A stretch of DNA of 64,000 nucleotides. It comes from Cnuella takakiae (GTDB lineage: Bacteria; Bacteroidota; Bacteroidia; Chitinophagales; Chitinophagaceae). The notes below the pieces were generated by a model that saw nothing but the letters and a program-made list of their open reading frames with translations, searched no databases and had not been told where the DNA came from. Where the stretch lies: contig NZ_MTFE01000010.1 in the NCBI RefSeq assembly GCF_001953305.1, positions 1,737,899 through 1,801,898 of the forward strand, written 5' to 3'. This document shows, piece after piece, positions 1-33,274 of this stretch. A program made the translations under genes and the position numbers. The stretch's first letter is position 1. Each line of letters starts with the position of its first letter.

Positions 1-8
1 GTTTGAAG

Positions 9-937: not shown

Positions 938-1005
938 GATAACAGTTTCTGAATTTAAGTAGAAAACTCTAATTCTAAACTGTCCGCTTTTTAGGGGTAC
1001 TTACA

Positions 1006-2986: not shown

Positions 2987-3015
2987 TTTTTAACCAAATC
3001 TAACTCCTCAAGCCA

Positions 3016-4206: not shown

Positions 4207-4316
4207 AAAATCATAACGATCAATCCTTCTCTTTTGAAAAATTCTAATCACCTTATGGGGATCCTAAAGAAACTTATTAAATCATCAATAACTGACATAA
4301 TCTTAGAAGCTAGCGT

Positions 4317-14600: not shown

Positions 14601-15049
14601 TCAAGGCTGGAGAGAACATCATATCTGTACAGGTGGATGTAAGGGTGGTGAGAAATTCTGATGTGAAAAACGAAGAATTTCTTTACGAAACTGAAAAAGT
14701 GGAACCTGCCAGCCCGGCCACTCCACACATCAGGTATTTCAATCGCATTTTGCTGCGCGAAAAAACTTTTGCCGAAAAAGTGTTTACTGATGAGGTGATT
14801 GCCAACCCGTACAAATCCACCGCACGATATTATATGGCCACCGGCGATGTGGCTGACCAGGATATGCCTTTGCCTTCACTGCCCCTGCAACAGATTGAAT
14901 GCACGCAGGGTTCGCGGCCTGCGGTGATAGATGATCTTTTCAAAAAACATAGCAATGGACACGCTTCATTTTCATTAACTGTTTATAATAAATCAACTGA
15001 TGAAACAGAACTCCCGGTTTTTTATGCCGATACTATCTATAAAAAATAG
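5693..15049 (+). CDS. Giant uncharacterised protein (3118 residues)
   Basis: One uninterrupted frame of about 350 kDa. No signal peptide or recognised catalytic domain was found. It is rich in Phe, Lys and Asp with long alternating hydrophobic/polar stretches, suggesting extended beta structure. Around residues 900-1080 there are many short FDFDLG- and KLDIKKLEF-type strands. Residues about 1270-1440 hold glycine/alanine-rich strands (VGLGAYIDGGIFYVGASITV, then EGEVKVRVSIKIGCVKIHLS) that read like a beta-barrel or lipid-binding sheet. The architecture recalls the very large bacterial and fungal proteins carrying DUF6603, but I cannot confirm this. It starts on the stop codon of the LysM-like gene and its end overlaps the membrane-protein gene, so all belong to one transcription unit. 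Base use matches its neighbours, so it is not degenerate. Function unknown. Confidence 0.85.
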   Translation: MKLTQHPTLKNFYHNAGTKLAVFSANTAAAEFDLATAFDSTAFDFIVFFFRTDTPDFDKVRVEFSSVVAAGIRKILWLDEFTSAGARNAQAINVMSKSNVVQGYAVVFGSTDNQVAISRNDNKATIKFLDGNLNVLVAGGKEHTFLAHNTTALESMAVFTSAVIPLSNLAKISGTKTSIANNFGSLCFTAAKPKNGTLVQPTIPFIQDDKGEMKLRSYHFFDHEDYGKDSQLVVTLFPYDSVSNEKDDYSSFMETVRSTHVTTNIPNEFAQKTKTSFKDGNFVSRLSFTEVLAGDKSTRNFFFIPEDAQQLQMANEGKNTLLGFSGTERVDNKMIIQFRESENVRYDDREIQFMPHGNSRTVFTTLVNRTDYHTDSEKSPLFDNVEKTGDSPTLEVAYSAIPVKNLENIELPFIPTFTFTGRRDLLELEKAFSKYRIKKVKAAALRPGPREIDTKQFVTPQGFLRNAGKLDFIKGPKKEDGLKAKDRTEANDIPFQFSVDGVTATSDFNLSLCREDVFFVLTPRMLKGQLEKIIVFFELKKFKIDLDVFTAAADTEDTIIIFKFSKRSFIDLLNDRESWSNFGNYKPADYQRLIDSITSKSEFPNTPDYAYFNNTIKVDPKWNGVIVLNIPLNNKQLPTIFDGLSASQVLQSSTGTAKPGDQLQFKTGLRFQYIAFPVNKTGIEDGSVAIRSTSFYGIIDYDLLNKPDGSVSEDYKTASKHFEDDRAKIKTHKFLLTKLLVRFENSEIRNFKSFAFLQVPNLFENDVEFDKIKFEHEIPASDVKPNLIRLEGQYQKNSAGNDEFNFSAKQNLVIKFRDGNLLDNITVTKISFSFSEGTKEYRFDIDAKAGLGAWSRMDLFSVDDLHFQNIGLKFSLDGLKLPSIKFDLSRLLVFPKISFNGKGLLSSFPIRFSHFEIFKLRRKSKKEIEIDYDYFTFPDFEVPDIDIGCFASMFSFIFDFDLGTLGNLGALKALKGKFCLGWTLKKGFAIGIKLDGPSSDGLHLDLFGALKLDIKKLEFCKAGEQFLIRILDARLKIFSIDLPPEDKTFSAVIFAHPGEKIAWLMSYVKGTDPNPTNNKLLLGIGQRVGLDGVENMRLVKDGIEQIKNVFNPEIKVCGQGVPPVYRPERNWLIGSEALLPEKWPLELQFIFNDPVLYGIHLGFKNGLLAGFNIDILYKKLSENLGVYSTEIQLPDAIRSHDTGGAYFRLPNIGIDIYTNGDWKTDIGFPRTSDDWSRSGFLQLRTVPPFVGWFGFYLMRSRTASLTLFKGFIDDAYSRKHLNIIQAGFAMRVGLGAYIDGGIFYVGASITVYGILEGAFAFENQTGLATMFPDHFAIMGRVGAIAELVGYVDFFIIKASIRISLRAEFGMLLVYLSKPGNVLNPSKPGQGKGIQPVKVYIEGEVKVRVSIKIGCVKIHLSFRAFVRFEYTIGGGGSSQKLARKQANRFLPETSASPIEVTINGITDVPMIYMPAFSKINESGSVEQLLMLHSFSIPFFGLKKDGDRIVFSKKNFIKNKVLQPFFNNLVTGLSAQSIAGANTYETLRAVLIGNDVKGTAGADVRINIKLPNYRPVFIKGINSTDKATVVNILKNYFLLDDTEIDLGPGPTCKPIVDSFVHALIPAPVVCKIKIADANGISIHETTEKFGLTVKGLVSGDVTSTIRPIMKKESDLQYMEAFYDDYKTQFLDRTNNIAKLADPEHDIRENVMVPEFFTLAALLTLETFFNQVNPKQKNGEAVNPAISIDNGGIFHYEYQIKDENSEEQTVTGTWDPKDSLEDIIGQLNYFYNSGLRLPEVAQAIATKAIYAVLEQQETITPLAAGPDPATVSILLDDQDITNEVFGESPASRRDNISDMGKFISGFETAGFLEKLRDEFDAAGPKFTSPFSLLPVTIGVQTGRLNIESSGVVEGRFFELPARLSQHGTLSSLYSYAVKFADVKQTTDAGAVTLNVFNCLNVEVKIKRHTNRVVEIVNVYADELNLIYTLHREQFDIDGIDLYYKPVENDPKQPVRLLRLINTVGTILKTNLSPRTSPPLFETLAKARKEDENNRNFWEDSNKDRKHFIKLLWEAVTTNTGGYFIVLDKDFDAMLPEGSTEETMIVSFSTTSAEVPRNFNCFRLPFNQTVFDGLDQKTHYLYLDKILLDKKAVQEYHPVIPAHSLGFEVFRDRTKNPKSNYLQYLPLEFNLQESGGKVILDKQRILPIMPTSVLDKDGNPVTDQYKYEHISPLNVMDRTITGDDLPAFYAELNNVKRYETVGKKYKLEYDIRDVHGYRIAAKGEKPIGAATYTHFYFDKLVPVESWPLTKLGYWFDNWEKEKNILSWKVSCNSDIREVLDLAAIERTGKDFKYKLGDEIEREDVEKLKLIIPGVLNNLYTILAQLTDARTIVTLSNYKGTKTVKEELRKKIESITLLLQSIIETKHMPTENVVAIDAFSVETNPADSVKNLHAISISISRPLENTLAAKEAAELFGYDEKIISDPDQTWDFATTHSCESEIAHLNPADNARSSVHDLNDAIRLGTKLKFDTTHPDDPQKVQMAAWSLGISSNNITQKRVLFVINEAGLSQLRAENTDADGAFDENKCYFGIRPFSNKLFSGEYSPRVAGLPSEVFTNIDLDKSLRIVLNKMDELLQANFISAQVKTGQDAEKDLFEQLIAVKRKLAKTQLREKLDWVMQEQEVGDAIKTEFGNLLLERLNNFYDYDGVISTAITTPVDLSGNRLTLSLDTQAGYKLVSSKIDESKKWSVLFDQREPTDISFDVLPRVTHIEFDITPTTGSEEIEHSTWIQLIRPAQFENSYKVTGWHRIIREFPDKPVILQHSADQKFTDGQPQAAEWDIEALGKWIYQLEIKDTYQKGDRIKGNITLATQVAKFLMAAAGIENFIAYWSARIISQGAAFDWKPFVTDLHLQFSTLAFESKEAATKTAQHSFELRKVAAAEWSIADEHSIPGATITFHDGAGKPHIQVGDFNVFKAGENIISVQVDVRVVRNSDVKNEEFLYETEKVEPASPATPHIRYFNRILLREKTFAEKVFTDEVIANPYKSTARYYMATGDVADQDMPLPSLPLQQIECTQGSRPAVIDDLFKKHSNGHASFSLTVYNKSTDETELPVFYADTIYKK

Positions 15050-16037
15050 TTACCGGCGCACAGCAATACTGTTTTTGCTGATGATGGCGATGCTGCAATC
15101 ATTTTCGCAGCGTGTGTCGTCAGTAGAAATTGATGGAAAGCAAAAGAAGGATTGGCATTTTTACCCTGGCCGCACCAGCTTTGTGACGGTGAAGCTTGAC
15201 AGTGCTGTGCCGGCTGGAGCGCAATTGTTCGTGATCTATGTTGACAACATCCCTGTCAGGAAAATATATCCTATCGGCCCGGTGGCCGGTACTTCACTAA
15301 ATTATCGATTCGATTTTTCCACGCAGGCCCAGTTGATGGAATGGAAATCCTTTTTTCACGCAAACGACGGAGCAAACCAGTTAGATGGCAAAATTATCAC
15401 TGTAGGATTAGAAACTGGCATACTGTTGAATTCGGCGGTTAAAGTTGATGTGCAATTGGTCAAAACCAATGCAACTGGTTGGGCATGGGGTATTGGCTTG
15501 ATCTTGCTCGCAGCATTTGTGTACGCTCTTTTTTGGACAGAAATATTCAGGGAACCGACCACTATTCCGGGCACTCCCAAGACCAAGTTCAGTTTATCCC
15601 GTGTACAATTTGGTGTATGGAACATACTTATTCTTTTCAGCGCCGCATTTATTTATCTCTATACCGGCAGGCTGCTGGCAATTCCGCCTCAGCTGTTAGG
15701 ATTAATAGGCATCAGCGGTGGCCAGTTTATACTGGGTTGGGCGCTGGCAAGAACACCTTCAGGCGAAACGCTGGCCAAAGAATCTTCCGGTAACGTGGTG
15801 GAAGACATTGGTGAAGGCGTGCACCGCTTCCAGAATTTGCTGTGGTCTATTGCGCTGTGGATCTATTTTATCCAGGCGCTGCTGGTAACAGTAGATTATC
15901 CGGCAATTGATGCAAACTTATTAATACTAACAGGCTTTACGGTTGGATTATATGCGTTCGGCAAAGCAAAAGAAACCAATACCGAGGCCAGGAAGCTGGC
16001 AAAAAGAAAAATTGACGATTCAAACCAAAATATTTAA
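15024..16037 (+). CDS. Membrane protein, signal peptide plus five helices
   Basis: A 337-residue protein. I prefer the ATG at 15024, which gives a compact signal peptide (RRTAILFLLMMAMLQSFSQR); an in-frame ATG at 15000 would add eight residues. The first 130 residues after it form an extracytoplasmic beta-rich domain, followed by five hydrophobic segments (starting near GWAWGIGLILLAAF, FGVWNILILFSAAF, LLGLIGISGGQF, LLWSIALWIYF and NLLILTGFTVGLY). The segment SLSRVQFGVWN with the later LLGLIGISGG resembles a recurring pattern in uncharacterised bacterial membrane proteins. It overlaps the 3' end of the giant gene and is followed 21 bases later by the M35/M15 gene. It could anchor or export the giant protein; that is inference. 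Confidence 0.75.
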   Translation: MPILSIKNSYRRTAILFLLMMAMLQSFSQRVSSVEIDGKQKKDWHFYPGRTSFVTVKLDSAVPAGAQLFVIYVDNIPVRKIYPIGPVAGTSLNYRFDFSTQAQLMEWKSFFHANDGANQLDGKIITVGLETGILLNSAVKVDVQLVKTNATGWAWGIGLILLAAFVYALFWTEIFREPTTIPGTPKTKFSLSRVQFGVWNILILFSAAFIYLYTGRLLAIPPQLLGLIGISGGQFILGWALARTPSGETLAKESSGNVVEDIGEGVHRFQNLLWSIALWIYFIQALLVTVDYPAIDANLLILTGFTVGLYAFGKAKETNTEARKLAKRKIDDSNQNI

Positions 16038-16058
16038 TCACAAAAAAAATGAATTGAT

Positions 16059-17666
16059 ATGCCTTCAATACAAACCAGGATCATTGCGCCGCAGCAGGTG
16101 AATGCGGACGGTCCGGTAATGGTAACTTTTGAACTCACAAATAATGGTCCAGATGATGCATATGTGCTGAAACGCGATATGCCATTGGAAGGATTGAAAA
16201 GCGATTGCCTTGATGTGAGGGTGAACGGCGAAAAGGTGTTGTACGATGGCTACTTCCTGAAAAGAAGTGAAGCCAACATGGAAGATTTTGTGCTGGTGAA
16301 AGCAGGGCAAACAATTTCAGAAACATTCGACATCAGCCTGGCATACGATATGTCAACACCCGGAACGTATGAAATTAGATTTGACGGAACCAAGCTGGTG
16401 GTGATATCTGCCGAAGCACGCAAGCGTAGTATGCATGAAGCAAAAGCTGCAGCAGCGCTTACCCAGGTAGAAAATGTGCCGGGAGTGCTTTCACAAGAAA
16501 GCAACGCGGTTAGGCAAACCATTGGCGCCGCCATGCGTACCGAGGCTAAAAAAAAACGGGTCGGGACTGAAGGCTTTGCTATGGGATTAAGAAAGCCAGC
16601 GGTCAAAGGCGCCAATGCAACTCAGAAAACCGAAATAGAAGCAGCCCACAAGGCCGGCTACGATTATACAATCGCGGCAATAGGCCAGGTGGATAATAAC
16701 AACACCTATAAATTATGGTTCGGTGAATATACTGCAGCACGTGCCGGCATTGTAAAAGATAATTATGCAAAGATTAAGCAGCGCATGGAGACCGTAGAAT
16801 TCACTTACGACCTTACTGGCAGCGAATGCACAGATGATACTTTTGCATATACAACCATAGGCGGAAGTACCATTTGGCTCTGCGGGCTGTTTTGGGCGGC
16901 CCCCCCAACCGGCTTCGATTCAAAAGCAGGAACAGTGGTGCACGAGCACAGCCATGCAAGTGCACGCACAGAGGACCTTATATACCGGCAAGACCCGTGC
17001 AAAGAACTTGCTCGCACCAATCCTGCAAAAGCCATTAAGAATGCAGATAACCACGAATATTTTACGGAAGATGTAAATACAATTCCGCTTTCACCCTTTG
17101 CCGTAGAAACAATTTTGTCGGAGAACTTCGATTATTTAACCGTTACTCCTAATGAAACCGATGATGAGTATGCACTGGAGGAAATGGAATTCAAAGCAAA
17201 AGTCGATGGCTGCATGGAAAATCCCAGACCTTGGTATAACTGGCGACCTGCGGAAAGTATTAAACATTTGTTGGCGCAGTTAAACAATATGGCACCCGGC
17301 CGCAGCAAAGAGCATGATGGAACTATTGGTGACTCAGATCATGAGGGCCGCAATTCCGACCACAATCCTTGGGTAAAGGATGAACAATTAGGAATTGGCG
17401 TAGTAACAGCTGTTGATATTACCCATGACCCTGCGCATAAATGTGATTGCAATGTGCTTGTAAGCGTTTTTGAAAAAAATAAAGACCCGAGAATTAAGTA
17501 TGTAATCTGGAACAGAAAGATCATGAACTCTTCTGCAATTGGAGGTAATGAACCTTGGAGGTGGCGGCCGTATTATGGCAAGAATCCACACAATCTGCAT
17601 ATGCATGTGTCTGTGAAGTGTGACAGGCCCAGTTATGATAGCACTGTTGATTGGTTATTGAGTTGA
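16059..17666 (+). CDS. M35 metallopeptidase fused to M15-like lysin domain
   Basis: A 535-residue two-enzyme fusion without a signal peptide. Residues 1-110 match the beta-sandwich that precedes M35 peptidases (MPLEGLKSDCLDV, EDFVLVKAGQ). The M35 (aspzincin, peptidyl-Lys endopeptidase-like) catalytic domain carries the zinc site HEHSH followed by an aspartate in RTEDLIY, and the family tail NPAKAIKNADNHEYFTED. Residues about 395-535 form a separate M15-type peptidase domain as found in phage lysins: SDHNPW, VVTAVDITHDP, IKYVIWNRKI and NPHNLHMHVSV, which supply the zinc-binding His and Asp residues and cut peptidoglycan stem peptides. Proteolysis plus wall cleavage in one chain suggests an effector or predatory lytic factor. 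It is the last gene of the giant-protein unit. Domain calls are strong; use is inferred. Confidence 0.85.
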   Translation: MPSIQTRIIAPQQVNADGPVMVTFELTNNGPDDAYVLKRDMPLEGLKSDCLDVRVNGEKVLYDGYFLKRSEANMEDFVLVKAGQTISETFDISLAYDMSTPGTYEIRFDGTKLVVISAEARKRSMHEAKAAAALTQVENVPGVLSQESNAVRQTIGAAMRTEAKKKRVGTEGFAMGLRKPAVKGANATQKTEIEAAHKAGYDYTIAAIGQVDNNNTYKLWFGEYTAARAGIVKDNYAKIKQRMETVEFTYDLTGSECTDDTFAYTTIGGSTIWLCGLFWAAPPTGFDSKAGTVVHEHSHASARTEDLIYRQDPCKELARTNPAKAIKNADNHEYFTEDVNTIPLSPFAVETILSENFDYLTVTPNETDDEYALEEMEFKAKVDGCMENPRPWYNWRPAESIKHLLAQLNNMAPGRSKEHDGTIGDSDHEGRNSDHNPWVKDEQLGIGVVTAVDITHDPAHKCDCNVLVSVFEKNKDPRIKYVIWNRKIMNSSAIGGNEPWRWRPYYGKNPHNLHMHVSVKCDRPSYDSTVDWLLS

Positions 17667-17845
17667 TTGCTGATGCGTTTTCTTCAAATAATATTATTGT
17701 TAAGTGAAAGATCAAGCGTTGATTCGCTTTATTAGGGAATTCGTCAAAGCCTCATCATGCATAAGAACTTTCGAAAAATTTTGTATCTAATGCTATTAGT
17801 GGTGGATTGACAGAAGAATAGAGAGAAAAGATTAAAAGTGTAAGT

Positions 17846-23672: not shown

Positions 23673-24905
23673 ATGTTAATGAACACCTTAAAAAATAAAA
23701 GCATCTACGATCTTTTGATTATTGGCGCTGGACCTGTTGGTTTGGCAGCCGCACATAAATGTGCCCAAAGAGGGTTGAAAATTATGGTACTTGAACAATA
23801 CAATTTTTTAAATCAATTTTCAAGTTCTGCTGGCGACACTAGACAGTTTCGACTGCAATATTCAGAAGATTATATGACTAGACTATCTTTAGAATCAATA
23901 AAATATTGGGATGAGATTCAAGAGCATAGCAAGGATATTTTAAGGACGAAGGTTGGTAGCCTATGGCTTGGTGTAGACGAATCTAGTTCTAGTGAAGGGC
24001 AAATCAAAGAGGCAATTGAAACAATGGATAGATTAAAGGTCCCATTTGAAAAATTGACAAAAAAAGAAATAGAAGCAGTATTTGGCTTCAATAATTTGCC
24101 AGACAATTATGATGGTTTTTTTCAAAAAGATGGAGGTACAATTAATGTTCCAGCAACAGTTAATACATTAAAAAAACTTTGCTCTGAATCATCACTTGTA
24201 ACCTTTCTTTTTGATGAGAAGGTAACAAGTGTTGCTTTAACAGATACAGTTAAAGTAAAAACAGAAAAAGGAGAATATCATTCAGAAAAGCTACTACTTA
24301 CGACTGGCCCATATATTAATGAATTAATAAATGGTTTTAATCTAGAATTAGAATATGAGGTTTGGCAGATGGTTTCTGCTTATTTCAAACTTAAAGATGG
24401 AAGTAGAGATTTGCCATCTTGGTTTATCTATGAGAATGAGTCAGATTCTGATCCGGGGTTCTATTATGGTTTTGAAAACTGTTCCTGGTCCAATCCAGGG
24501 TTTCTGAGGATTGCACCGGCTTTTGCAACTGACCGATTCAAAAAGCCTGGTGAACGGAAACCTAAAGCAAACATCAATGATCTAAAATTGACAGTTGATT
24601 GGGTAAAAAAAAGGATTCCGTTTGTAGATTGTACACCTCAATATATTAGTACTTGTCTGGCGTCAATTCCAACAAAAACATCGAAAAAGATGTTTTTGGA
24701 TTTTATCACAACAACGGTAAACCAGAATAAAAATATTTTAGCTTTTTCTAGTGGTTGGGCTTTCAAATTTGTTCCCTTACTTGGAAAGATATGCGCAGAT
24801 CTCCTAATTGATGGGCAAACCCAGTATGATATAAGTCATTTTAATTTCAATGATAAATTCAAGGATGAGAGATTTCAAATAAATAAAAGACGATTACCTT
24901 TTTAA
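23673..24905 (+). CDS. FAD-dependent oxidoreductase, sarcosine oxidase-like (DAO family)
   Basis: A 410-residue flavoenzyme. The N-terminal dinucleotide-binding motif is DLLIIGAGPVGLAAAHKCAQ, ending in an acidic residue after MVLEQ. The segment SSAGDTRQFRLQYSEDYM resembles the FAD/substrate region of monomeric sarcosine oxidases and N-methyltryptophan oxidases, and the C-terminal NILAFSSGWAFKFVPLLGK is the matching closing motif; these family members often bind FAD covalently through a cysteine near the end, which is not seen here (the position reads SSGWAFKF). The enzymes oxidise secondary or primary amines with release of H2O2. The next gene begins 8 bases after the stop, so the two form an operon. 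Codon use is AT-rich, unlike the mannan locus. Substrate unknown. Confidence 0.75.
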   Translation: MLMNTLKNKSIYDLLIIGAGPVGLAAAHKCAQRGLKIMVLEQYNFLNQFSSSAGDTRQFRLQYSEDYMTRLSLESIKYWDEIQEHSKDILRTKVGSLWLGVDESSSSEGQIKEAIETMDRLKVPFEKLTKKEIEAVFGFNNLPDNYDGFFQKDGGTINVPATVNTLKKLCSESSLVTFLFDEKVTSVALTDTVKVKTEKGEYHSEKLLLTTGPYINELINGFNLELEYEVWQMVSAYFKLKDGSRDLPSWFIYENESDSDPGFYYGFENCSWSNPGFLRIAPAFATDRFKKPGERKPKANINDLKLTVDWVKKRIPFVDCTPQYISTCLASIPTKTSKKMFLDFITTTVNQNKNILAFSSGWAFKFVPLLGKICADLLIDGQTQYDISHFNFNDKFKDERFQINKRRLPF

Positions 24906-24913
24906 AAATTATT

Positions 24914-26650
24914 ATGCCGAAAAGCTATAAACAAGGATCTATTCAAGGTTTAACGACAGACGTGGCTATAGTTGGAGCAGGTGTCTCTGGACTTTACTCT
25001 GGTTGGAGGTTATTATCTGGCTATTTTAAAGAAACACCAGACTATAGAACCTCTAATCCTTCCGTTTCAATTTTTGATATGAGTAACAGAATTGGTGGAA
25101 GATTATTTTCTATTAAAAATTATCCAGGTTTAGATGGAGTCGTAGGGGAGCTTGGGGGGATGAGATTTATGGAGCACCAAAAAATTGCAAATAGCTTAAT
25201 AAATAAAGTTTTAAAACTAACAGTTCTTGATTTCCCTATGGGAGACAAGAATAAGAATTTAATTTATTTAAGGGGTCAGCGTTTTCATGAATCTGACTAT
25301 GGAAAATCAGGGTTTAAAACAAATTATAACCTTGATAATAAATGGCAAGGCAAACATCCTGATGAAATTTTTACAGCAATAGTGAATGATGTTTTAATAA
25401 AAAATGGATATTCTACAGGTGCCCGTAATAGGAAAGAATGGGATGAGATTAAAAGCATTTTATCTTATTACCAAGGCCCAGATAAAGGTCAGACCCTTGA
25501 AAATATAGGATTTTGGAACCTTATAAATGATCAAGTCGGAAATGAAGGTTACAATTTTATTTCTGATGCAGGTGCTTACTTTTCTAATACAATTAATTGG
25601 AATTCTGCAGAAGCTATGCCATACATGATGGGTGATTTTGTTGGCGATGTAAAATATAAGACCATTGAAGGAGGATTCGACATGATAGCTGAAGGGCTTG
25701 CTAAACTTTTCAGTGAGGCTGGCGGTACTATATATAATAGTAAACAGTTATTAAACTTTTCACATAATGATTTAAATTCTTTCAAATATAAGTTGCTAAT
25801 TAGGGATACGAAGGACAATGATGAATATGAAATTTATTGCAATAGTTTAATCTTAGCTATGCCTAGAAGAGCATTAGAGCTTATAAATGATCATAACTTT
25901 TTGTTTAAAGGAGGCGAAGATATCGAGTTGAAAAAAAATATTAGATCTGTTATAGGCGAGCCGTCATTTAAGTTATTAATGGCATTTGATAATGGAAAAA
26001 ATAGACTTCCATGGTGGAAATCTGAATTAGATATAGATGAAGGACGATCTATAACAGATTTGCCAATGAGGCAATGTTATTATTTTGGTGCGGCTAAAGA
26101 TAGAAATGCCTCACTTTTATTAGCTAGTTATAATGATATGAGAACGGTTGATTTTTGGAAGCCTTTAGAGTTGCCGGATCAAGGTATGTCGTATAAAAAA
26201 AATTCGGTTCATTTTAAGAAAATGATAGACAACAACAGTTTTGTGCCAAAAGCTACCAGCTTTGTCACTAAAGAAGAATTAGAGAAAGTTAGTAAATTTT
26301 ATAAGCAAGCTCCAAAAAGAATGGTTGATCATTCATTATTTCAACTTAAGGAACTACATGGTGTAGAAAATATTCCAGACCCATTTACAACAATGTATGA
26401 AAACTGGAGTGACGACCCTTACGGAGGTGGGTACCATGCATGGAAAGCTAGATATGATGTTGGTTCTGTAATGAGTTACATGAGACGCCCGATGAAAACT
26501 GAAAATGTTCATATTTGTGGAGAGGCATATAGTGATCAACAAGGGTGGATTGAAGGGGCTTTTTGTGTAGCTGAGAGAATGTTACAGCAGGAGTTCGCTA
26601 TGTGCAAACCTTCAGAATGGCTAGACGATGATTATTATTTAGGGAGGTAA
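24914..26650 (+). CDS. Flavin amine oxidase, L-amino-acid oxidase-like
   Basis: A 578-residue protein. VAIVGAGVSGLYSGWRL is the FAD-binding Rossmann motif, and NRIGGRLFSI with GVVGELGGMRFMEHQ are the following signature of flavin monoamine/L-amino-acid oxidases. The C-terminal part has the substrate/FAD closing segment DDPYGGGYHAWKA and HICGEAYSDQQGWIEGA. Relatives oxidise amino acids such as lysine, phenylalanine or tryptophan to imino acids with H2O2 and ammonia; some act as antibacterial agents and some start natural-product pathways. No signal peptide is present. It lies between the sarcosine-oxidase-like gene and the M28 peptidase gene, which suggests peptide release followed by oxidation. 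Specificity cannot be told from the sequence. Confidence 0.8.
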   Translation: MPKSYKQGSIQGLTTDVAIVGAGVSGLYSGWRLLSGYFKETPDYRTSNPSVSIFDMSNRIGGRLFSIKNYPGLDGVVGELGGMRFMEHQKIANSLINKVLKLTVLDFPMGDKNKNLIYLRGQRFHESDYGKSGFKTNYNLDNKWQGKHPDEIFTAIVNDVLIKNGYSTGARNRKEWDEIKSILSYYQGPDKGQTLENIGFWNLINDQVGNEGYNFISDAGAYFSNTINWNSAEAMPYMMGDFVGDVKYKTIEGGFDMIAEGLAKLFSEAGGTIYNSKQLLNFSHNDLNSFKYKLLIRDTKDNDEYEIYCNSLILAMPRRALELINDHNFLFKGGEDIELKKNIRSVIGEPSFKLLMAFDNGKNRLPWWKSELDIDEGRSITDLPMRQCYYFGAAKDRNASLLLASYNDMRTVDFWKPLELPDQGMSYKKNSVHFKKMIDNNSFVPKATSFVTKEELEKVSKFYKQAPKRMVDHSLFQLKELHGVENIPDPFTTMYENWSDDPYGGGYHAWKARYDVGSVMSYMRRPMKTENVHICGEAYSDQQGWIEGAFCVAERMLQQEFAMCKPSEWLDDDYYLGR

Positions 26651-26716
26651 ATGTTGCGCTTAAATATTGTGGCTTATGTTAATGTGAGTGTAAGTAAAGC
26701 ATAAACTTTGGATTTT

Positions 26717-28141
26717 ATGAAGATTGTCTTGTTAGAGCTTAATTCTGATTTATTATGGAGAGAAGGGTATAATCCAAAACTCGTTGATACTTTAACAAAA
26801 CTGCAATTATTGGAAGATTCACATTATGAAAAACCTATATTAGTTGTTATCAGTAATATTTATGAGAATGAGTCTCTTTTGTCTTCGGAAGTATACATGA
26901 CAAAATTCTTTAACAAACTTAAAGACTTAAAGATCTCAAAGTTTTTTGAGCCATTTCGAGAAAGAATGATCATTAATCCAATTAAGACGGTTATTCCTTA
27001 CAGTTTATTTAAAACAGCAATAAACAAGCAATTCGAAAATTTTCCACTCCATCATGCAGTATTTGTAAGCACTAATTCAGAGAATATAATGCAGGCAAGA
27101 AGTTTAGGAATCACATCTTTACAGATAAAAGGTGATGGTATACAAAATGCAGACACCGAAGAGTTAGAAAATTTTTTATCTGGAATAGAGCGTATTTTAT
27201 TGTATTCACCCTGTTGCAAAAAGTTGCGGGAAGCAAAGAATTTTTCATACAGCCAAGTAAACAAAAGCAAAAAAATAGATCCTACAATTAAAAAAATTAT
27301 TAAAAATGTAAATATTGATAATCTATTCAGTTCAATAAAAAGGTTAACAGAGTTTGGTTCACGTTGGTCTAATTCTCCAAACATAAATGAAGTGCCTAAA
27401 TGGGTTACTAAACAATTTAAAACTATCGGATATTCTGAGGAGAAAGAGATTGACTACCTTTTTTTTAATTTACCCGGCTCCAGTATTAATCCCCATTCAA
27501 ATATAATATGTAAGAAAATTGGGAAGCGAAAAGAGCAAATATTGATTTGTTGCCATTACGATTCTATTTCTGAAACTCCTATGAGTAAGGCTCCAGGTGC
27601 GGATGATAATGCTTCAGGAGTTGCAGCAACCATCGAAATTGCAAGAATTATCAAGGACTTGCCTATGGAACATAGTGTAATTTTTGCCGTTTTTGGTGGA
27701 GAAGAGCAGGGGCTTTTTGGTTCAGCAGCTTGCGCGGAACAGGCAGTTTTGGAGAATTGGCCTATTAAATTAGTTATTAATTTGGATATGATTTCTTATC
27801 AAGAGCCAGGGATTCCATCTAAGATTATAATTGAGTATGACCAAGGTAACAAAGTGTCGAATAATGATACTAAGGCAAAAGCCTTCGCTATGATTATGGC
27901 TCAAGCAGCTGCTGATTATACGGACTTGAAAGTTGCACATACAGATATTTGGAATAGTGATTATATACCATTCGAAGAGAAAGGTTTTAGTTGTATCGGT
28001 GTTTATAATGGCACAGATAATCCATTTTATCATACTGTATCTGATACGATAGACAGAGTTGATATGAACCATTTCAAAGAAGTAGTTAGAATGGTTCTTG
28101 CCTCAATTATTCAGATAGATAAAGAAGGGATAAATCTATGA
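26717..28141 (+). CDS. M28 aminopeptidase with N-terminal extra domain
   Basis: A 474-residue protein; ATG at 26717 is preferred over the TTG nine bases earlier. The C-terminal half is a co-catalytic zinc M28 peptidase: CCHYDSISE, GADDNASGVAATIE, VFGGEEQGLFGSAA, INLDMISYQ and FYHTVSDTIDRVD supply the usual His, Asp, Glu, Asp and His metal ligands and the catalytic glutamate. The first 170 residues read like a haloacid-dehalogenase-type Rossmann domain without a clear catalytic DxD (VLLELNSDLLW, then VFVSTNSENIMQARSLGIT). Most M28 enzymes are secreted; this one has no signal peptide, so it probably works in the cytoplasm. It closes the flavoenzyme operon (66-base gap). A function in maturing or degrading a small peptide is plausible but unproven. 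Confidence 0.75.
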   Translation: MKIVLLELNSDLLWREGYNPKLVDTLTKLQLLEDSHYEKPILVVISNIYENESLLSSEVYMTKFFNKLKDLKISKFFEPFRERMIINPIKTVIPYSLFKTAINKQFENFPLHHAVFVSTNSENIMQARSLGITSLQIKGDGIQNADTEELENFLSGIERILLYSPCCKKLREAKNFSYSQVNKSKKIDPTIKKIIKNVNIDNLFSSIKRLTEFGSRWSNSPNINEVPKWVTKQFKTIGYSEEKEIDYLFFNLPGSSINPHSNIICKKIGKRKEQILICCHYDSISETPMSKAPGADDNASGVAATIEIARIIKDLPMEHSVIFAVFGGEEQGLFGSAACAEQAVLENWPIKLVINLDMISYQEPGIPSKIIIEYDQGNKVSNNDTKAKAFAMIMAQAAADYTDLKVAHTDIWNSDYIPFEEKGFSCIGVYNGTDNPFYHTVSDTIDRVDMNHFKEVVRMVLASIIQIDKEGINL

Positions 28142-28251: not shown

Positions 28252-30147
28252 CTAAAGCCAAATAATTAGGTTTGCCAACGGTTCCCATCCAGCAGCTCCA
28301 AGCCATTCACAATTAGCAATATAGCCATTTGCAGAAATGTTAAAGGCAATAACATTACCACTTAAATACGAATGAATGTTCTTGTAAGCCGATTCTAGTG
28401 AATCGTGGTTATGCTTAGGATCTTTCCGTTTCGCTTTCCCTGGTGGATAGCTATTTCCACCATTATTTCCATACCATCGATCCACCACACACTTCGTTGA
28501 ACATACTACAGGCGTGCTACCTGGCAAATTTTTTATAATAAGGCTAGATTTTATAATTACTTCATAAAAGAAAAAGTGGTTTGCTTGTTGGTCTACGCAG
28601 AAACTCATTTTAATTTTCTGGTCTTTACCTAATATGCATCTATAATTATTAGGAATGTCCATCGTAATAAATTGAGTTTCTAGTTGCTGAATGGCTGCTT
28701 CTACCTTTGTAAGTTCACTTTTATATACTGGCGAGTTGATTGTATAATGTGAAAGGGGATGAATCAAACCATGTAGAAGTGAACTGATAATATTGATTGC
28801 AGACACGCTATTACCAGTTTTTGTCAAAAATTCATTTGTTCTTTTGAGAACTTGTGAAAGCTTATAATTTGGTAGTTGGACACTATCAGTATCTGCAAGT
28901 TCATATTTTGGCATGTGTTTCTTTAAAAGGTGCTCCAAAGCTTTTCGAAAATAGTTTGCAGCAGCTGGGTAGTCTGGTTCAGTTCTATGATGCAAATAAC
29001 GTATTGCTCTATCAAATTCTGTTTTTCCTAGAGTCATAATAGGTTTGTCGAACGAAATACCATTCGAAGTTTCTTTACCAACATAAAACTCTACTGATAC
29101 CCAACGATTTTCACCAATAATTTCAAAGTATTTTTTTGCAAGTTCGAACCAATGCCGGTCATAAGTAGATATAAATGTTTGATAGCCTTTAAATTCGGAG
29201 GTGATTATATCTAATATCGGTAATCTATTACCCGCATCCAATCCAATAAAGATGTCATCCAAATATAAAATTTGAAGGTCGACCTGCGGATTACGTTTCA
29301 AGGAAGCAAGATATAGGCATACAGCAAATGCAGAAAGTCGTGCTTCATTCAAAATATCACTATAATCGCCAATAATGACTGCACCGTCCTTTATTACATT
29401 TAGTCTCAAGTCAGTAGTACAGTGCCATCCCCATTTACCCAAACCATAATTGAATGTGATTGGAGCCAATTCATATGAGATCTGAATATTCAAATCACTA
29501 AAATACTCGTTTAGCATTCGATTAGAATCTGTAAATATTTCGTCTAATGTAGAGGTGAGATGTCCTTCAAATATTGGAAGTTCAGCCAATGCAATTTGAT
29601 GTAAGCGGTCATTTCGAGTATAAGAGTTCTTTATTAAATCTTCTTGTAGTTGCTTCCATTTGGTACCTAGCCGGTAAGTTCCGCCACTACTTATAGGGAT
29701 GTGGTTGAATAGCAAATTTAAAACTATGAGATTAAAAAGATTAGGTTTTGGTTCCTTGTGTAGATATACATCTAGTAACTTACTATAATCTAAAAACCCT
29801 TTCACCAAAGCTCCATCTTGGATAAATTGAACTTGATTATTCGAGTTCTGAGGGGTAAATTCAAAAGTTTGGTGAGTATTCGGAATTGCAATTATTGGAT
29901 TGGATGTGAGGTCATTAAACTCAATCTTTATGCTACCAAATTGGGTCTGAGCATACCTATTATTTACGAAACTTACAGGCGTGCGAGAGTTTGTGAAATA
30001 ATCATTTAATGCTTTATAAAGGGAACTTTTACCGCTTCCGTTTTCACCGTATATTAATAGATTTTCACCATTTGGTAATTTTATATCTTTATAAATTCCA
30101 TAAAAAGCTCGATAATTTTCTAAATAGACGCTAGTAATTCTTTTCAT
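28252..30147 (-). CDS. AAA/ABC-type ATPase, likely defence-system partner
   Basis: A 631-residue ATPase of the SMC/RecF/OLD-like group. Walker A is LLIYGENGSGKSSLYKAL near residue 32-48, an ABC-signature-like LNEARLSAFAVCLYLASL is near 265, and Walker B is LQILYLDDIFIGLD near 290, followed by ISTYDRHW as a switch region. After residue 370 come a helical domain (YFRKALEHLLKKHM) and a beta-rich tail with no recognised nuclease motif. ATPases of this type act as sensors or motors in many anti-phage systems. It starts 22 bases after the stop of the DUF262 gene and is co-directional, so the two are an operon. AT-rich composition fits a horizontally acquired defence cassette. No exact known system match. 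Confidence 0.8.
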   Translation of the reverse strand: MKRITSVYLENYRAFYGIYKDIKLPNGENLLIYGENGSGKSSLYKALNDYFTNSRTPVSFVNNRYAQTQFGSIKIEFNDLTSNPIIAIPNTHQTFEFTPQNSNNQVQFIQDGALVKGFLDYSKLLDVYLHKEPKPNLFNLIVLNLLFNHIPISSGGTYRLGTKWKQLQEDLIKNSYTRNDRLHQIALAELPIFEGHLTSTLDEIFTDSNRMLNEYFSDLNIQISYELAPITFNYGLGKWGWHCTTDLRLNVIKDGAVIIGDYSDILNEARLSAFAVCLYLASLKRNPQVDLQILYLDDIFIGLDAGNRLPILDIITSEFKGYQTFISTYDRHWFELAKKYFEIIGENRWVSVEFYVGKETSNGISFDKPIMTLGKTEFDRAIRYLHHRTEPDYPAAANYFRKALEHLLKKHMPKYELADTDSVQLPNYKLSQVLKRTNEFLTKTGNSVSAINIISSLLHGLIHPLSHYTINSPVYKSELTKVEAAIQQLETQFITMDIPNNYRCILGKDQKIKMSFCVDQQANHFFFYEVIIKSSLIIKNLPGSTPVVCSTKCVVDRWYGNNGGNSYPPGKAKRKDPKHNHDSLESAYKNIHSYLSGNVIAFNISANGYIANCEWLGAAGWEPLANLIIWL

Positions 30148-30169
30148 ATAAGTATCGACTAAGCAGAAA

Positions 30170-33100
30170 CTATATTGTACCTTCTATTTGTACAATATAT
30201 GGAACATTGAATAATTTCAAAAGTGCAATACTGATGGGGTGATAAGGATCACTGATTTTTGCATAGATTTCCAATATGGTTGAAACATCACTGTTTTCTG
30301 TATCATTTATTTCAGGTAAATCTTCTAAGTATACTAAAACTTCGCACTTTGCTTCAAGGATTTGCTTTTTGAAGTATAACTCATAGACCATCGCATCTAA
30401 AAGCCTTTCAAAAAAGCCTATTATTTTTTTATTGCCTTCAATAACTAAAATATACTCAATTATTTTGACGAATGTAGATTGAGTGCGAAGGGAAATAATT
30501 GGTAAAGGTACCTTCCTGAGATTATTTGAGGTGAGGCTATACGCCCCATTTAATGCAGAAGAGTTATAAAACAAAAAGTGAGTTATCAATCTGCTGCCCA
30601 ACAGACATAATATAAATTTTGGATGGTAACCATATCTGACAACGTTGGTAATTAGAACATTATTATTAAATACTGCTTTATCTGTGTAAATGCCAACGTC
30701 CAAATTTGTTGTGAAGCTGTTTATCCTCTTTATTACGATTTTATGTTTGCTGTCAAAGATTTCTTTTAATGAATTATCTTTTTCATCCAGGGAAACCTTG
30801 CCGGCTGTTTCAACATTAACTCGATAATCCGAAATAGAAGTTTCTTTGATAAAAATGTAAGGCTCACTTGAAATTGAACTTGAATATTTTTCCAAATTGC
30901 TATAATTCAGCCCTTGTTGAATGTTTGCAATACTTCCAAGCGAAACTGGCGCATTTGATTGAATTTTCGATATTACATCTTCGTAGCTATTATCAATGGC
31001 ATTTTTAAATCTAGTTTTAAACAATGAGACAAAATCGTCGAAGTCAGATTTGCTTTCAATTTTATCCATTAAGCTGAATAGCTTATGCAATTCACTTCTC
31101 ACATACTCTTTATTGCTGATAATGTTGTGATATGGTAGGTCATACAAGAAATACCACAAGGCATAGAAACTTTGTTGAGTTCGCCTGTTGTTTTCTTTAT
31201 TGAAAATGTCGTCCAAATTTTGATTAATCGATTGTGTAGAAGTAGCATCATCTGATAATAGTTCCTTTAGCTTTTTCAAGAAGTCAAACTCAAACTGAAA
31301 ACAAGTAGCGACAAATCCTTCTTTGGCTTCATTATTTTCAAGGACTTTAGTAATATCGTTTTTGGATTTTACACGTAAGTTTATTTTATCCCCAATTTTG
31401 TAGATATCTAAGTATCTAGAAATTGTATCTTCTTTAGCTATTCCCTTGGTAATCTGATATTGTAGGTAAATCAATGAGGTGTAGATGTTTTCATCTTCCA
31501 TCCTTTGATTGTTTTTTCTTAAGTAAAACCAATCTTTGTTATTTCGGTGTATGCTCTTGATTGTTTCAATAATATCTCTTGAAACATAGGAATTCCACAT
31601 TTCAAACGTGTCTTCCTTTATTGGATACGGTTTGCTATTTAGCCGAATGAACAGATCAATGGATTCAAAGTGCTCATTATTCTTTTCGCTTATTTCTATA
31701 ATCCATAAATCAAAGTTTTTTATTTTGTCTTTTTGATCTTTAGTTAGTTGTTCAAAGTTTTTTCCATCAAGGCCTTTTAATATGCCGTTCTTAAGGTTAA
31801 GTGAATAGCCGTTTTTATCAGAATGGCGTTCTTCATTTTTTTCGTCCAAGTATGGTTTTTTCATAAATCCAAGAATGGATAACAATCGTTGTTGTCCATC
31901 TAGAACTTCTGATACATCGTCCTTTCTTTTAAACACGAATATTGGTGGTAATTTGATTCCCATCAATATGCTTTCAATAATTGCTGATGATTTTTTTTTA
32001 TTTATTACTTCATTCCTTTGATAGGATGGTCTAACCAAAAATCGCTGCCTCATCATTTGTCTACTTATGTCTTCTATAGCAATAGATGATGGTTCGGGTT
32101 TGTTAATGCGTAATTCGTCGAAACTTGTAACTTCATTTTCTTTAGGCTTAAGCTTTCTATTTGAAGCCTTAAACTCTGGATTATTTAGAAGATAAGCGGT
32201 AAAATCAATACTAAATTTTTTTCTAAAAAATTCAGAAGTTATAAAAAACCTTTCGTTGAGTTCCCTGAAGAAAGAACTCCGTTCCATTTTGAAGACGTCT
32301 TTATTATCGCTGATGTATTTTGCGAGTTCCTCCAAGGTTTGAGCGCTGATGGCTGTTAATGACCCAGTTTCAACTTCGATGATTGATAAGCCCCAAAATA
32401 TGCATTCAAATATCAATCGGTTATAAGCAAAAGCGTTTCTCTTAAAGATATTGCTTAGCTGCTTTAATAGATTTATCTTTTTGATGAACCCCCTATATAT
32501 TTCTTCAACTTCGCCTGAAGTAATATTAGAAGATAAAAATTCGAAGTACTTAGCAATCACAGAATCTTTTTCAATAGAGTAATATTTTATCGGGATTTTG
32601 TGTAGTACCAATAGTTGCCGAACTTTTTTTAGGAGAATCTCTATATTGGAGTTCTCGAAGTGAAGCAACCCCGATATTTCGCCGTGTAAAACTTGATCGC
32701 CAACTATTTTATTTTTTAGGTATGAGTTCAAGTCATCATCAATATAAGCTGCTTTATCAATATCTGTTGGTTTAAGTGGGGTTATACCCGAGTTATACCT
32801 TTTGAAAATTTCTTTTTTTACGACTTCTTCAATTTCGTCATTAACCAAACTTTTTGAATGAAAGCTAAATTCAATTATGCGTAGTTTTGTATTCCAAAAA
32901 AAGTCTTTCAACTTTTCCTCTAAATTTTTAAAATACTTATTTGCTATTCCGATATGTTGTAGCTTTTGTAAGCCGTTTTTTTTAAGCTTAAATTCATTGT
33001 TTTTAAACCGCAAAATTGTTTGATATCTTTGTCGGCCATCAATTACTTCTACTTTGTCGGAATTTCGAAAGTAGATCAAAGGGGGAATTTCTGTGCCTAG

Positions 33101-33274
33101 CAGGATACTTTCAATGAAGTAAGTTGCTTTTTCATCATCCCAGACATAATTTCGTTGATAGAAGGGTTGGTAATTTGTATTGCTCACTCGCTCCTCGTTG
33201 TTGAAGAGAGTTTCAATAGACATTACTTTGGGTTCAATCTTTATAAAGTTCTCAAAAATGTCTCTAATTTCCAT
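30170..33274 (-). CDS. Two-DUF262 protein with C-terminal specificity-like domain
   Basis: A 1034-residue protein with three parts. The first DUF262 (GmrS/ParB-like) domain has YQPFYQRNYVWDDEKATYF, then LLGTEIPPLIYF and VEVIDGRQRYQTIL. The second starts near residue 410 with RPSYQRNEVINKKKSSAII, then LMGIKLPPIFVF and SEVLDGQQRLLSIL. Both keep the QR and DG(R/Q)QR motifs that define the NTPase/nuclease site. From about residue 790 the sequence reads like a type I S-subunit or TaqI C-terminal target-recognition domain (SIANIQQGLNYSNL, NSSALNGAYSLTSNNLRKVP). DUF262 is known from type IV enzymes such as GmrSD and BrxU and from SspE, where it restricts phage DNA; the usual HNH (DUF1524) partner is not seen. 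Paired with the ATPase gene downstream. Role in phage defence is inferred. Confidence 0.8.
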   Translation of the reverse strand: MEIRDIFENFIKIEPKVMSIETLFNNEERVSNTNYQPFYQRNYVWDDEKATYFIESILLGTEIPPLIYFRNSDKVEVIDGRQRYQTILRFKNNEFKLKKNGLQKLQHIGIANKYFKNLEEKLKDFFWNTKLRIIEFSFHSKSLVNDEIEEVVKKEIFKRYNSGITPLKPTDIDKAAYIDDDLNSYLKNKIVGDQVLHGEISGLLHFENSNIEILLKKVRQLLVLHKIPIKYYSIEKDSVIAKYFEFLSSNITSGEVEEIYRGFIKKINLLKQLSNIFKRNAFAYNRLIFECIFWGLSIIEVETGSLTAISAQTLEELAKYISDNKDVFKMERSSFFRELNERFFITSEFFRKKFSIDFTAYLLNNPEFKASNRKLKPKENEVTSFDELRINKPEPSSIAIEDISRQMMRQRFLVRPSYQRNEVINKKKSSAIIESILMGIKLPPIFVFKRKDDVSEVLDGQQRLLSILGFMKKPYLDEKNEERHSDKNGYSLNLKNGILKGLDGKNFEQLTKDQKDKIKNFDLWIIEISEKNNEHFESIDLFIRLNSKPYPIKEDTFEMWNSYVSRDIIETIKSIHRNNKDWFYLRKNNQRMEDENIYTSLIYLQYQITKGIAKEDTISRYLDIYKIGDKINLRVKSKNDITKVLENNEAKEGFVATCFQFEFDFLKKLKELLSDDATSTQSINQNLDDIFNKENNRRTQQSFYALWYFLYDLPYHNIISNKEYVRSELHKLFSLMDKIESKSDFDDFVSLFKTRFKNAIDNSYEDVISKIQSNAPVSLGSIANIQQGLNYSNLEKYSSSISSEPYIFIKETSISDYRVNVETAGKVSLDEKDNSLKEIFDSKHKIVIKRINSFTTNLDVGIYTDKAVFNNNVLITNVVRYGYHPKFILCLLGSRLITHFLFYNSSALNGAYSLTSNNLRKVPLPIISLRTQSTFVKIIEYILVIEGNKKIIGFFERLLDAMVYELYFKKQILEAKCEVLVYLEDLPEINDTENSDVSTILEIYAKISDPYHPISIALLKLFNVPYIVQIEGTI

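Follow-up and report, generated by a model that had tools for sequence, protein, structure and literature searches.

The question raised by this locus is what a protein with two DUF262 domains and its own DNA-reading module does together with an ABC ATPase. The window, i.e., the whole 64,000-nucleotide stretch of Cnuella takakiae DNA analysed here, contains both open reading frames on the minus strand, to which all coordinates below refer. The first, at 30170-33274, encodes a 1034-aa protein with tandem DUF262 domains and a target recognition domain (TRD), as seen from the ORF, Pfam, and PADLOC. The second, at 28252-30147, encodes a 631-aa ABC ATPase with a predicted HEPN-type RNase domain. 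The initial annotation described a co-directional ATPase gene 22 bases downstream and AT-rich DNA; both descriptions hold, the gap being 30148-30169 and the G+C content 33% in the gene pair vs 44% in bases 1-17700 and 50% in bases 36000-64000. Six neighbouring genes have been assigned with Pfam and NCBIfam to FAD enzymes, peptidases, a CHAP/GH75-like protein, and an AraC regulator. We propose, at about an even chance of being right, that the two genes together defend against phage by abortive infection, with a DUF262-TRD switch that silences and then frees an ABC ATPase-RNase.

Pfam GmrSD_N, which is the DUF262 domain, matches the 1034-aa protein in two stretches (E = 4.1e-26). The first half (residues 1-385; 32120-33274) carries QRN at residue 40, DGRQR at 79, and FKRYN at 157, and the second half (residues 386-765; 30980-32119) carries QRN at 419, DGQQR at 459, and FIRLN at 542, the last motif having the form FxRxN in both. 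Two full DUF262 motif sets are thus present in one chain, as had been noted before. Among 19 homologues, 21 of the 22 motif residues checked are invariant, including the DGxQR-type motifs at 79 and 459 (19/19); the exception is N421, which is different in three. The closest named profile to the first half is Menshen NsnA (E = 4e-48, best stretch residues 8-328; NsnA, NsnB, and NsnC being the Menshen gene names used in PADLOC). The DUF262 part also matches a REase_II profile of PADLOC, PDLC03418, at 4.6e-16, best over residues 410-473. HNH/DUF1524 is absent among the Pfam families found up to E 1 in the window proteins and among the six families found up to E 0.1 in the 19 homologues. The best 50 Foldseek matches of the protein name no DUF262 structure, and the single DUF262 protein, run as a sequence query against the PDB, gave no result. 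By analogy with its families, the protein would be expected to have DUF262 NTPase activity.

The C-terminal third is a genuine TaqI/HsdS-type TRD, a hypervariable domain of residues 775-925 (30500-30952) followed by a helical tail (residues 926-1034; 30173-30499). PADLOC Specificity_I matches this third at residues 722-944 (E = 4.7e-11), and Pfam TaqI_C lies above its curated cut-off in the genome profile search (28.7 vs 26.5 bits; 30503-30784, inside the TRD). TaqI_C is unlisted at E 1 in the Pfam scan of the whole 1034-aa protein and matches 6 of 19 homologues at E ≤ 0.1, the best at 7.6e-7. The predicted fold resembles CamA, M.BseCI, and HsdS-type subunits, including DNA-bound methyltransferases. 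The profile and fold matches bear out an earlier impression that this part reads like a type I S-subunit or TaqI recognition domain. TRD identity is below that of each of four DUF262 segments in 171/171 sequence pairs; in the L029/L036 pair, for instance, the DUF262 segments are 82–96% identical vs 52% for the TRD. The domain is shortened in L031 and L033, which keep 107 and 94 of its roughly 150 residues. The TRD plus tail (775-1034) also co-varies with the RNase domain of the ATPase (partial r 0.65 given the DUF262 core), which is only a hint because the sequence pairs are non-independent.

Should the TRD recognise plain sequence, DNA of the cell itself would be expected to trigger it, with no related TRD found in the genome to account for self-protection. 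A genome-wide search found no second TaqI_C or similar TRD elsewhere; other adenine methyltransferases are present in the genome, and none with a related TRD was found. Pfam detects no methyltransferase domain in the gene pair, a methyltransferase is not seen as a constant neighbour in the flanking gene lists of relatives, and type IIG profiles occur in 2 of 79 flanking proteins scanned (among the best 25 of 163 families). The lack of a methyltransferase with a related TRD, together with a TRD that varies faster than the DUF262 halves, would suit a guard or decoy, in which the TRD mimics a restriction enzyme and baits phage DNA-mimic anti-restriction proteins, so that the RNase would be released once the mimic, instead of DNA, is bound. 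EcoprrI/PrrC offers a precedent, as a phage anti-restriction peptide frees PrrC according to excerpts of PMC3710099 and PMC2610378. We nevertheless consider a decoy quite unlikely, since fast TRD change is equally expected from changing DNA specificity and the fold match takes in methyltransferases bound to DNA.

The ATPase begins with a Rad50/SMC-like ABC head (29113-30147) that contains the Walker A motif GENGSGKSS (residues 34-42; 30022-30048), the signature LNEAR at residue 266, and the Walker B motif ILYLDD at 293. In Pfam, AAA_23 and ABC_tran are above cut-off and SMC_N is just below it (9.3e-10, 38.7 bits, cut-off 40), while Foldseek matches the head to SMC and Rad50 heads with E down to 6.1e-12. 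A CxxC (zinc-hook) motif is absent from the ATPase. Membership in MADS, AriA, PtuA, or GajA has been rejected from the best 25 of 62 PADLOC matches because most of these cover little beyond the P-loop region; a literature search on MADS and NsnA gave no result.

Behind the head lies a helical C-terminal domain (residues 371-500; 28648-29037) whose sole invariant columns are R401 (28945-28947), E405 (28933-28935), and H467 (28747-28749). They are present in 30/30 aligned ATPases from both gene contexts, and five further relatives outside the alignment (L116, L117, L119, L127, and L128) have the same pattern. The PrrC/RloC triad has been described as Arg-X3-Glu-X36-52-His, often with a Ser before the His, and mutation of each triad residue abolished RloC activity (both from excerpts of PMC2610378). 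Because the three residues follow this Arg-X3-Glu...(Ser)His pattern, the domain is probably a HEPN-type RNase, with domain-only profile tests that are not significant. The Glu-to-His spacing in the window ATPase is 61 residues vs the published 36–52. The search pattern R-x3-E...[NH]xx[SA]H, picked after the sequences were seen, occurs in 43/46 ATPase ORFs (some loci overlap), 14/17 AAA_13 proteins (in L098 from a different Arg), and 12/600 background ORFs; it misses L129, in which the Glu-His gap is longer still. Residue 463, before PLSH, is His in 20/20 DUF262-linked and Asn in 10/10 IIG-linked aligned ATPases.

Profile comparisons give a mixed picture of this domain. With hhalign, the ATPase profile matches the 17 AAA_13 proteins (probability 96, E = 3.3e-9) from the ABC signature to R401/E405, a match carried mainly by the ATPase part; aligned alone to AAA_13, the C-domain scores no better than 40 column-shuffled controls. 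Pfam DUF4145 matches 3/30 C-domain members (best 1.6e-4) and PF05168 HEPN 1/30 (E = 0.11). The C-domain of the window itself has no HEPN family match; it has sub-cut-off matches to Erf4 and RE_EcoO109I, the latter (E = 0.0079, 16.4 vs a cut-off of 22.5 bits, 1/30 members) being a weak hint toward DNA cutting. The PDB profile search with the C-domain returned no HEPN chain, and in the structure model the confidence falls under 50 over residues 464-469, which surround the key histidine. The initial annotation had overlooked the predicted RNase domain, which shifts the likely outcome from DNA cutting to RNA cutting.

The arrangement of the two genes is not due to chance, as it is conserved in other genomes. 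The survey of ATPase adjacency that had been suggested finds the ATPase next to the DUF262-TRD gene in 18/18 complete relatives, all Bacteroidota, with intergenic gaps of -20 to +42 bases. Another locus, L002, begins its contig with a TRD end plus ATPase and may be a truncated copy of either the pair or an IIG locus; it has been counted neither among the 18 relatives nor among the IIG-type loci. One could suppose a pair outside defence, for housekeeping or maintenance of a mobile element, e.g., DNA repair or plasmid stabilisation. The Rad50-like head would fit this, as would the mobility genes near several loci (Phage_integrase in 5/79 flanking proteins scanned). Carriers of the pair are scattered, however; the only full-length match in 38 genomes searched, and the only TRD form in 395 genomes of the phylum, are those of the window's own genome. 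The DUF262 residues 1-180 and 386-560 are 87–96% identical across Sphingobacteriaceae, Flavobacteriaceae, and Weeksellaceae members, and such identity between families points to transfer. Also, PADLOC families number 163 over 79 proteins flanking the pair vs 20 over 67 control proteins, which were taken from six regions of the C. takakiae genome. This excess over a modest control agrees with a defence role and is only descriptive, because families and not proteins were counted and the 79 were picked by eye from 160 (81 dropped, including long SusC-like, doubtful, and small ORFs). A role outside defence is therefore improbable. Among 72,556 plasmid and 50,697 phage records, no place covers 80% of the DUF262 protein; the ATPase, searched in plasmids only, occurs in three plasmid records. 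A home of the pair on phages or plasmids thus finds no support.

For the preferred reading, an abortive-infection system, the following mechanism can be envisaged. The tandem-DUF262 protein would bind nucleotides and act as a switch, with the TaqI/HsdS-type TRD as its built-in DNA reader, and would keep its ABC ATPase-RNase partner silent. The trigger would act at the TRD and might be a DNA motif or the modification state of invading DNA, or a phage anti-restriction protein occupying the TRD. A change of state in DUF262 NTP turnover and the ABC head would then release the C-terminal HEPN-type domain, which would cut RNA, probably tRNA, and so stop translation. The computed support comprises the domain anatomy, the constant pairing of the two genes, the variable TRD, and a near-constant partnership between the ATPase family and the TRD. 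The DUF262 NTPase, the RNase activity of the R-E-H triad, which partner controls the other, what the trigger is, and the defence role as such are extrapolated from the families. A related control has been described for PrrC, which a linked restriction-modification enzyme keeps silent until a phage anti-restriction peptide releases it (excerpt of PMC3710099).

The nearest named relatives are PrrC-EcoprrI, Menshen, and GmrSD/BrxU/SspE, and the pair is none of these. As in PrrC-EcoprrI and RloC, an ABC head of the Rad50/SMC type precedes a helical domain bearing Arg-X3-Glu...Ser-His, and a linked protein contains a DNA specificity domain. The pair differs in that a TRD-bearing tandem-DUF262 protein takes the place of the HsdMSR complex as partner, no CxxC is present, domain-level profile similarity is not significant, and tRNA cleavage is only predicted. 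Menshen membership has been rejected, as only the DUF262 part fits. The first half covers NsnA profile positions 41-355 of 385 (E = 4e-48), a second stretch also matches, and the pair includes a gene for a P-loop ATPase; here, however, two copies of DUF262 are fused to a TRD, and the NsnB match (E = 4e-4) is confined to residues 4-99 around the P-loop. An OLD-type partner belongs to Menshen (excerpt of PMC10952713), and Pfam finds no OLD/TOPRIM family among the six neighbouring genes. GmrSD, BrxU, and SspE share DUF262 with QR and DGQQR motifs, whereas the window pair has a TRD and an ABC ATPase instead of HNH/DUF1524. Type I and II restriction-modification systems share the TaqI/HsdS-type TRD but have a cognate methyltransferase, which the locus lacks. 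As the initial annotation supposed, the arrangement differs from listed systems: PADLOC 2.0.0 gives only partial single-protein matches, and no paper on double or tandem DUF262 was found in the open-licence literature. The combination of a DNA reader with a predicted RNase was not found in the catalogue and papers searched.

Related loci show the same parts in other combinations. In 17/18 further ATPase-family loci outside DUF262, the gene before the ATPase is type IIG-like or TRD-only; on a plasmid of Nostoc, the ATPase gene and a stand-alone gene for TaqI specificity share an overlap of 4 bases. Loci such as L084, L086, and L089 combine an IIG-like methyltransferase, an HKD-Snf2 helicase, and the ABC ATPase. 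They share with the window pair the ATPase family, the C-terminal TRD family, and the position of the ATPase after the TRD gene, while two DUF262 domains replace the methyltransferase and helicase in the pair. Conversely, the double-DUF262 core occurs with a fused HNH (L075-L078) or with a separate PIN_8 gene (L027 and L074), PIN being another fold common in RNases. These six have the same asymmetric tandem core, with DGRQR first (DGKQR in L076) and DGQQR second, and the TRD and ATPase profiles are unmatched in their DUF262 and surrounding genes. In L074 and L027, the PIN gene takes the place of TRD plus ATPase; in the tree, the PIN-bearing rows fall inside the TRD-bearing group, and the AU test does not reject a single TRD clade (p = 0.116).

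The HNH-bearing sisters lend some weight to a type IV-like system that cleaves DNA, in which the DUF262 (ParB/Srx-fold) halves or the ATPase C-domain would cut or nick at sites chosen by the TRD and the SMC-like ATPase would bridge or translocate DNA. ParB/Srx proteins have been reported with nuclease activity (excerpts of PMC4619093 and PMC12839542), the TRD is real, the ABC head resembles Rad50 and SMC, and the PDLC03418 and sub-cut-off RE_EcoO109I matches point the same way. In those sisters, however, the nuclease is a separate C-terminal module, which suggests that the DUF262 part is regulatory. The pair has no HNH/DUF1524 or other DNase domain above cut-off, and DNA cleavage does not explain why the R-E-H triad of the ATPase is invariant. 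We regard such cleavage as unlikely. The initial annotation had raised sequence-specific restriction as a possibility; given the missing DNase domain, the predicted RNase domain, and no constant methyltransferase neighbour, abortive infection triggered at DNA is the likeliest reading instead.

We read the related loci as a module swap, in which a tandem-DUF262 NTPase may have taken the place held by the methyltransferase in a cassette of TRD plus ABC-RNase. More broadly, and with somewhat less than an even chance, the pair may be a DNA-reading, RNA-cutting restriction-like system in which a fast-changing TRD on an asymmetric DUF262 pair programs an ABC-HEPN ribonuclease. It would belong to a wider module-exchange family, with the double-DUF262 switch driving HNH, PIN, or ABC-HEPN and the TRD plus ABC-HEPN cassette driven by a methyltransferase or DUF262. 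If the ATPase partner is an RNase, restriction-type DNA recognition would be coupled to a halt in translation with no dedicated methyltransferase involved, and a concrete self/non-self question arises. According to an excerpt of a review (PMC10952713), the role of DUF262 in Menshen, Dazbog, and PD-T4-2, which lack DUF1524, is yet to be confirmed. One DUF262 core with three different outputs makes the question of switch or nuclease directly testable by comparing the sister systems. The ATPases of the two contexts can also differ at their C-terminus, as the variable beta-rich domain (residues 501-631; 28255-28647) is missing from shorter IIG-linked relatives, e.g., L083, L090, and L091.

The gene at 30170–33274 (minus strand) of the window encodes a 1034-residue protein with two GmrSD_N/DUF262 stretches, each carrying the QRN, DG(R/Q)QR, and FxRxN motifs. 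This agrees with the two complete motif sets claimed in the initial annotation, which had also placed this gene and the following ABC ATPase gene (28252–30147, minus strand, 631 aa) correctly. In 19 homologues, 21 of the 22 DUF262 motif residues are invariant, and the exception, N421, differs in three. The 27 double-DUF262 proteins of the tree all have DGQQR in the second half, and 26 have DGRQR in the first (DGKQR in L076). The two halves are conserved, yet dissimilar to each other. They are assigned from sequence since no DUF262 structure is named among the best 50 Foldseek rows, and the domain packing is not trustworthy because the AlphaFold model is only moderate (mean pLDDT 80, pTM 0.43).

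The specificity domain claimed for the C-terminal third proved to be a true target recognition domain (TRD, residues 775–925) by PADLOC, Pfam, PDB-profile, and Foldseek matches. This third matches type I specificity profiles in PADLOC (best 4.7e-11), weakly matches Esub1 in the PDB profile search (E 1.3e-3), and retrieves CamA, M.BseCI, PacII, and HsdS proteins in Foldseek (46 matches at E ≤ 0.001, best 4.4e-6). Pfam TaqI_C is above the cut-off for the protein in the genome search, is absent from the single whole-protein Pfam scan, and is matched at E ≤ 0.1 by 6 of the 19 homologues. Across the 171 pairs formed by the 19 homologues, the TRD falls below each of the four DUF262 segments in identity in every pair, with a median of 23% compared to 43–73% for the segments. 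The L029 and L036 proteins share 82–96% identity in the four segments and 52% in the TRD. Fast change is not limited to the TRD, as the helical tail (median 28%; the TRD is lower in 118/171 pairs) and the last domain of the ATPase (median 23%) are also variable.

Scanning the genome_contigs collection yielded 33 loci, 18 of which, all in Bacteroidota, have a complete double-DUF262 + TRD gene. The pairing proposed initially recurs in other genomes: in all 18 complete relatives, the double-DUF262 + TRD gene is directly followed, on the same strand, by an ATPase homologue, at gaps of -20 to +42 bases. The TRD is shortened in L031 and L033 (107 and 94 residues; 139–153 in the other relatives). The remaining 15 loci are one truncated by a contig end (L024), with the ATPase located on a separate contig of that genome (L041), two further genes truncated at or close to contig ends (L035, L037), loci without the TRD (L027, L034), fragments (L039, L040), and eight TRD-only matches (L038, L041–L047). 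In L039 of Chitinophaga polysaccharea (10001–10966), a DUF262-gene fragment beside an ATPase-gene fragment resembles a decayed copy of the pair.

The pair has a scattered distribution. Of 38 genomes (the window's own and 37 relatives), only the window's own gave a full-length hit. In 395 genomes of the phylum, the TRD form was likewise seen once, in that genome; five others carry the double-DUF262 core with another output. DUF262 residues 1–180 and 386–560 are 87–96% identical among L029, L030, and L036 (Sphingobacteriaceae, Flavobacteriaceae, and Weeksellaceae), which suggests horizontal transfer. Flanking proteins matched 163 PADLOC families over 79 proteins, and the control 20 over 67 proteins, a comparison that is descriptive because the 79 were picked by the author from 160. 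Among the flanking matches listed (25 of 163) are AbiLi (three proteins), AriA (three), HEC-01A (two), and type IIG enzymes (two).

Behind the ATPase head, which is of the Rad50/SMC type, lies a helical domain (371–500). When this domain is aligned from 20 DUF262-linked and 10 IIG-linked ATPases (those encoded after a type IIG-like methyltransferase gene), R401, E405, and H467 are the sole invariant columns, and the His is preceded by Ser (29/30) or Ala. Five of eight further relatives have this R-E-H pattern (L116, L117, L119, L127, L128); in L129 it is seen by eye only, with a longer Glu-His gap, L126 is without the helical-domain region, and L044 is truncated at its contig end. The RloC triad is described as Arg-X3-Glu-X36-52-His, often with Ser before the His; it fits Arg320-Glu324-His356 of PrrC, and RloC needs every triad residue (PMC2610378). 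The Glu-His spacing in the window's ATPase, 61, is longer than published. The RNase domains of PrrC and RloC, fused to ABC ATPases and linked to R-M operons, have been placed in HEPN (PMC3710099).

A signature pattern for R-E-H, composed after inspecting the sequences, occurs in 43 of the 46 ATPase ORFs, from loci that partly overlap (missed: L044, L065, L073), in 14 of 17 AAA_13 (PrrC/RloC-type) proteins, one from a different Arg, and in 12 of 600 other ORFs. When the whole ATPase family is compared with the 17 AAA_13 proteins by HMM, the match is significant (probability 96, E 3.3e-9) and in register from the ABC signature to R401/E405; the helical domain alone does not score above shuffled columns against the AAA_13 HMM. 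Three of the 30 aligned members match Pfam DUF4145 (best 1.6e-4), which we take to be a member of the HEPN group, and one matches HEPN (E 0.11). The window's own helical domain has neither match in Pfam, and its sub-cut-off matches are Erf4 (0.0071) and the restriction enzyme RE_EcoO109I (0.0079). Judged from these sequence features, the helical domain is probably a HEPN RNase.

Outside the DUF262 context, 18 loci with a member of the ATPase family were examined. The preceding gene is type IIG-like or TRD-only in 17 of them, a count that includes L087 and L117 (IIG profile only), L090 (small ORF between), L126 and L128 (broken), and L044 (cut); only the fragment L127 departs from this. A Nostoc plasmid carries a stand-alone TaqI-specificity protein (338 aa) as the partner, and a Thiospirochaeta plasmid a 285-aa protein annotated as hypothetical. 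Therefore, the TRD, rather than DUF262, is the near-constant companion of the ATPase family. The L084 methyltransferase contains Eco57I (3.9e-29) and TaqI_C (3e-15) domains, and the helicase of this locus is HKD+Snf2 in PADLOC and SNF2/PLD in Pfam; counting L084 itself, 12 of the 18 loci have such a helicase.

The order helicase, type IIG-like methyltransferase, R-E-H ABC ATPase recurs in L083, L084, L085, L086, L087, L089, L090, and L046. The helicase (~1100 aa, HKD/PLD + Snf2) is identified by profile in L084 and as tblastn relatives in the others, and a TaqI-type TRD is recognisable in most of the methyltransferases. This recurrent locus looks like an R-M system carrying a built-in PrrC-like RNase. 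In Campylobacter, an Eco57I-type gene directly upstream of an AAA ATPase gene appears in a table, without comment in the accompanying excerpt (PMC8713573).

The double-DUF262 core is also found with other outputs. A C-terminal HNH is present in L075 and L076 (Pfam) and in L077 and L078 (by reading the sequence); the L076 protein (8435–11746) additionally has N-terminal DUF4379 zinc-finger domains in three stretches. A PIN-domain gene directly follows a TRD-less double-DUF262 gene in L027 (12285–13388) and L074 (7710–8810). The latter is PIN_8 (Pfam 5.4e-66), and the L027 PIN gene is 60% identical to it. The PIN-linked double-DUF262 is a second form of the system, one without an ATPase. The tree groups the 20 TRD rows with the two PIN rows at full support, separate from the HNH rows; PIN may have replaced the TRD cassette or been replaced by it (AU test, p 0.116).

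The pair resembles a TRD + ABC-RNase cassette in which a double-DUF262 switch has been joined to the TRD end in place of the methyltransferase. The computation supports the anatomy, the gene linkage, the TRD variability, and the triad; the use of NTP by DUF262, the RNase activity, the silencing, the trigger, and the defence phenotype are inferred. PrrC is kept silent by the R-M enzyme linked to it until a phage anti-restriction peptide releases it (PMC3710099). By analogy, the DUF262-TRD protein would hold the RNase in check until the TRD is engaged. The weak point of this mechanism is self-recognition, since the pair has no methyltransferase gene and neither a further TaqI_C domain nor another related TRD was found in a search of the 99.68%-complete genome. 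Possible explanations are that the TRD reads modified DNA, that it acts as a decoy, that a further signal is required, or that the same sites are guarded by an unrelated methyltransferase; the other methyltransferase matches in the genome are six N6_Mtase, one N6_N4_Mtase, and no DNA_methylase.

The initial annotation had raised the pair as a candidate new system. PADLOC 2.0.0 gives only partial matches, to single proteins. A tandem or doubled DUF262 was not found in the open-licence paper library searched, where the wording is 'DUF262 domains', and the excerpts on DUF262 with TRD, TaqI, HEPN, or ABC ATPase contain no description of this pair. In the sections seen, the GmrSD family survey lists other extra domains (DUF4268, DUF4357, and DNA_binding_1), and it reports that the DUF262 protein RloF lies in type I loci of Campylobacter (PMC4619093); RloC was likewise named from such loci (PMC2610378). 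This is a precedent for the co-occurrence, in R-M loci, of separate genes for DUF262, HsdS, and ABC-HEPN proteins.

Elsewhere in the window, a 3118-residue ORF (5693–15049, plus strand) has no Pfam match at E 1e-5, and a tRNA-like gene at 4134–4206 (ARAGORN), with a two-base anticodon that was not determined, is probably spurious. An AT-rich cluster at 23673–28141, possibly biosynthetic, holds genes for an M28 peptidase and for two FAD-dependent oxidase-like proteins; the second of these has a VioA-like match in NCBIfam (2.5e-15) that falls far short of the cut-off. At 3016–4143, the window encodes an XendoU endoribonuclease-family protein (Pfam 1.9e-54).
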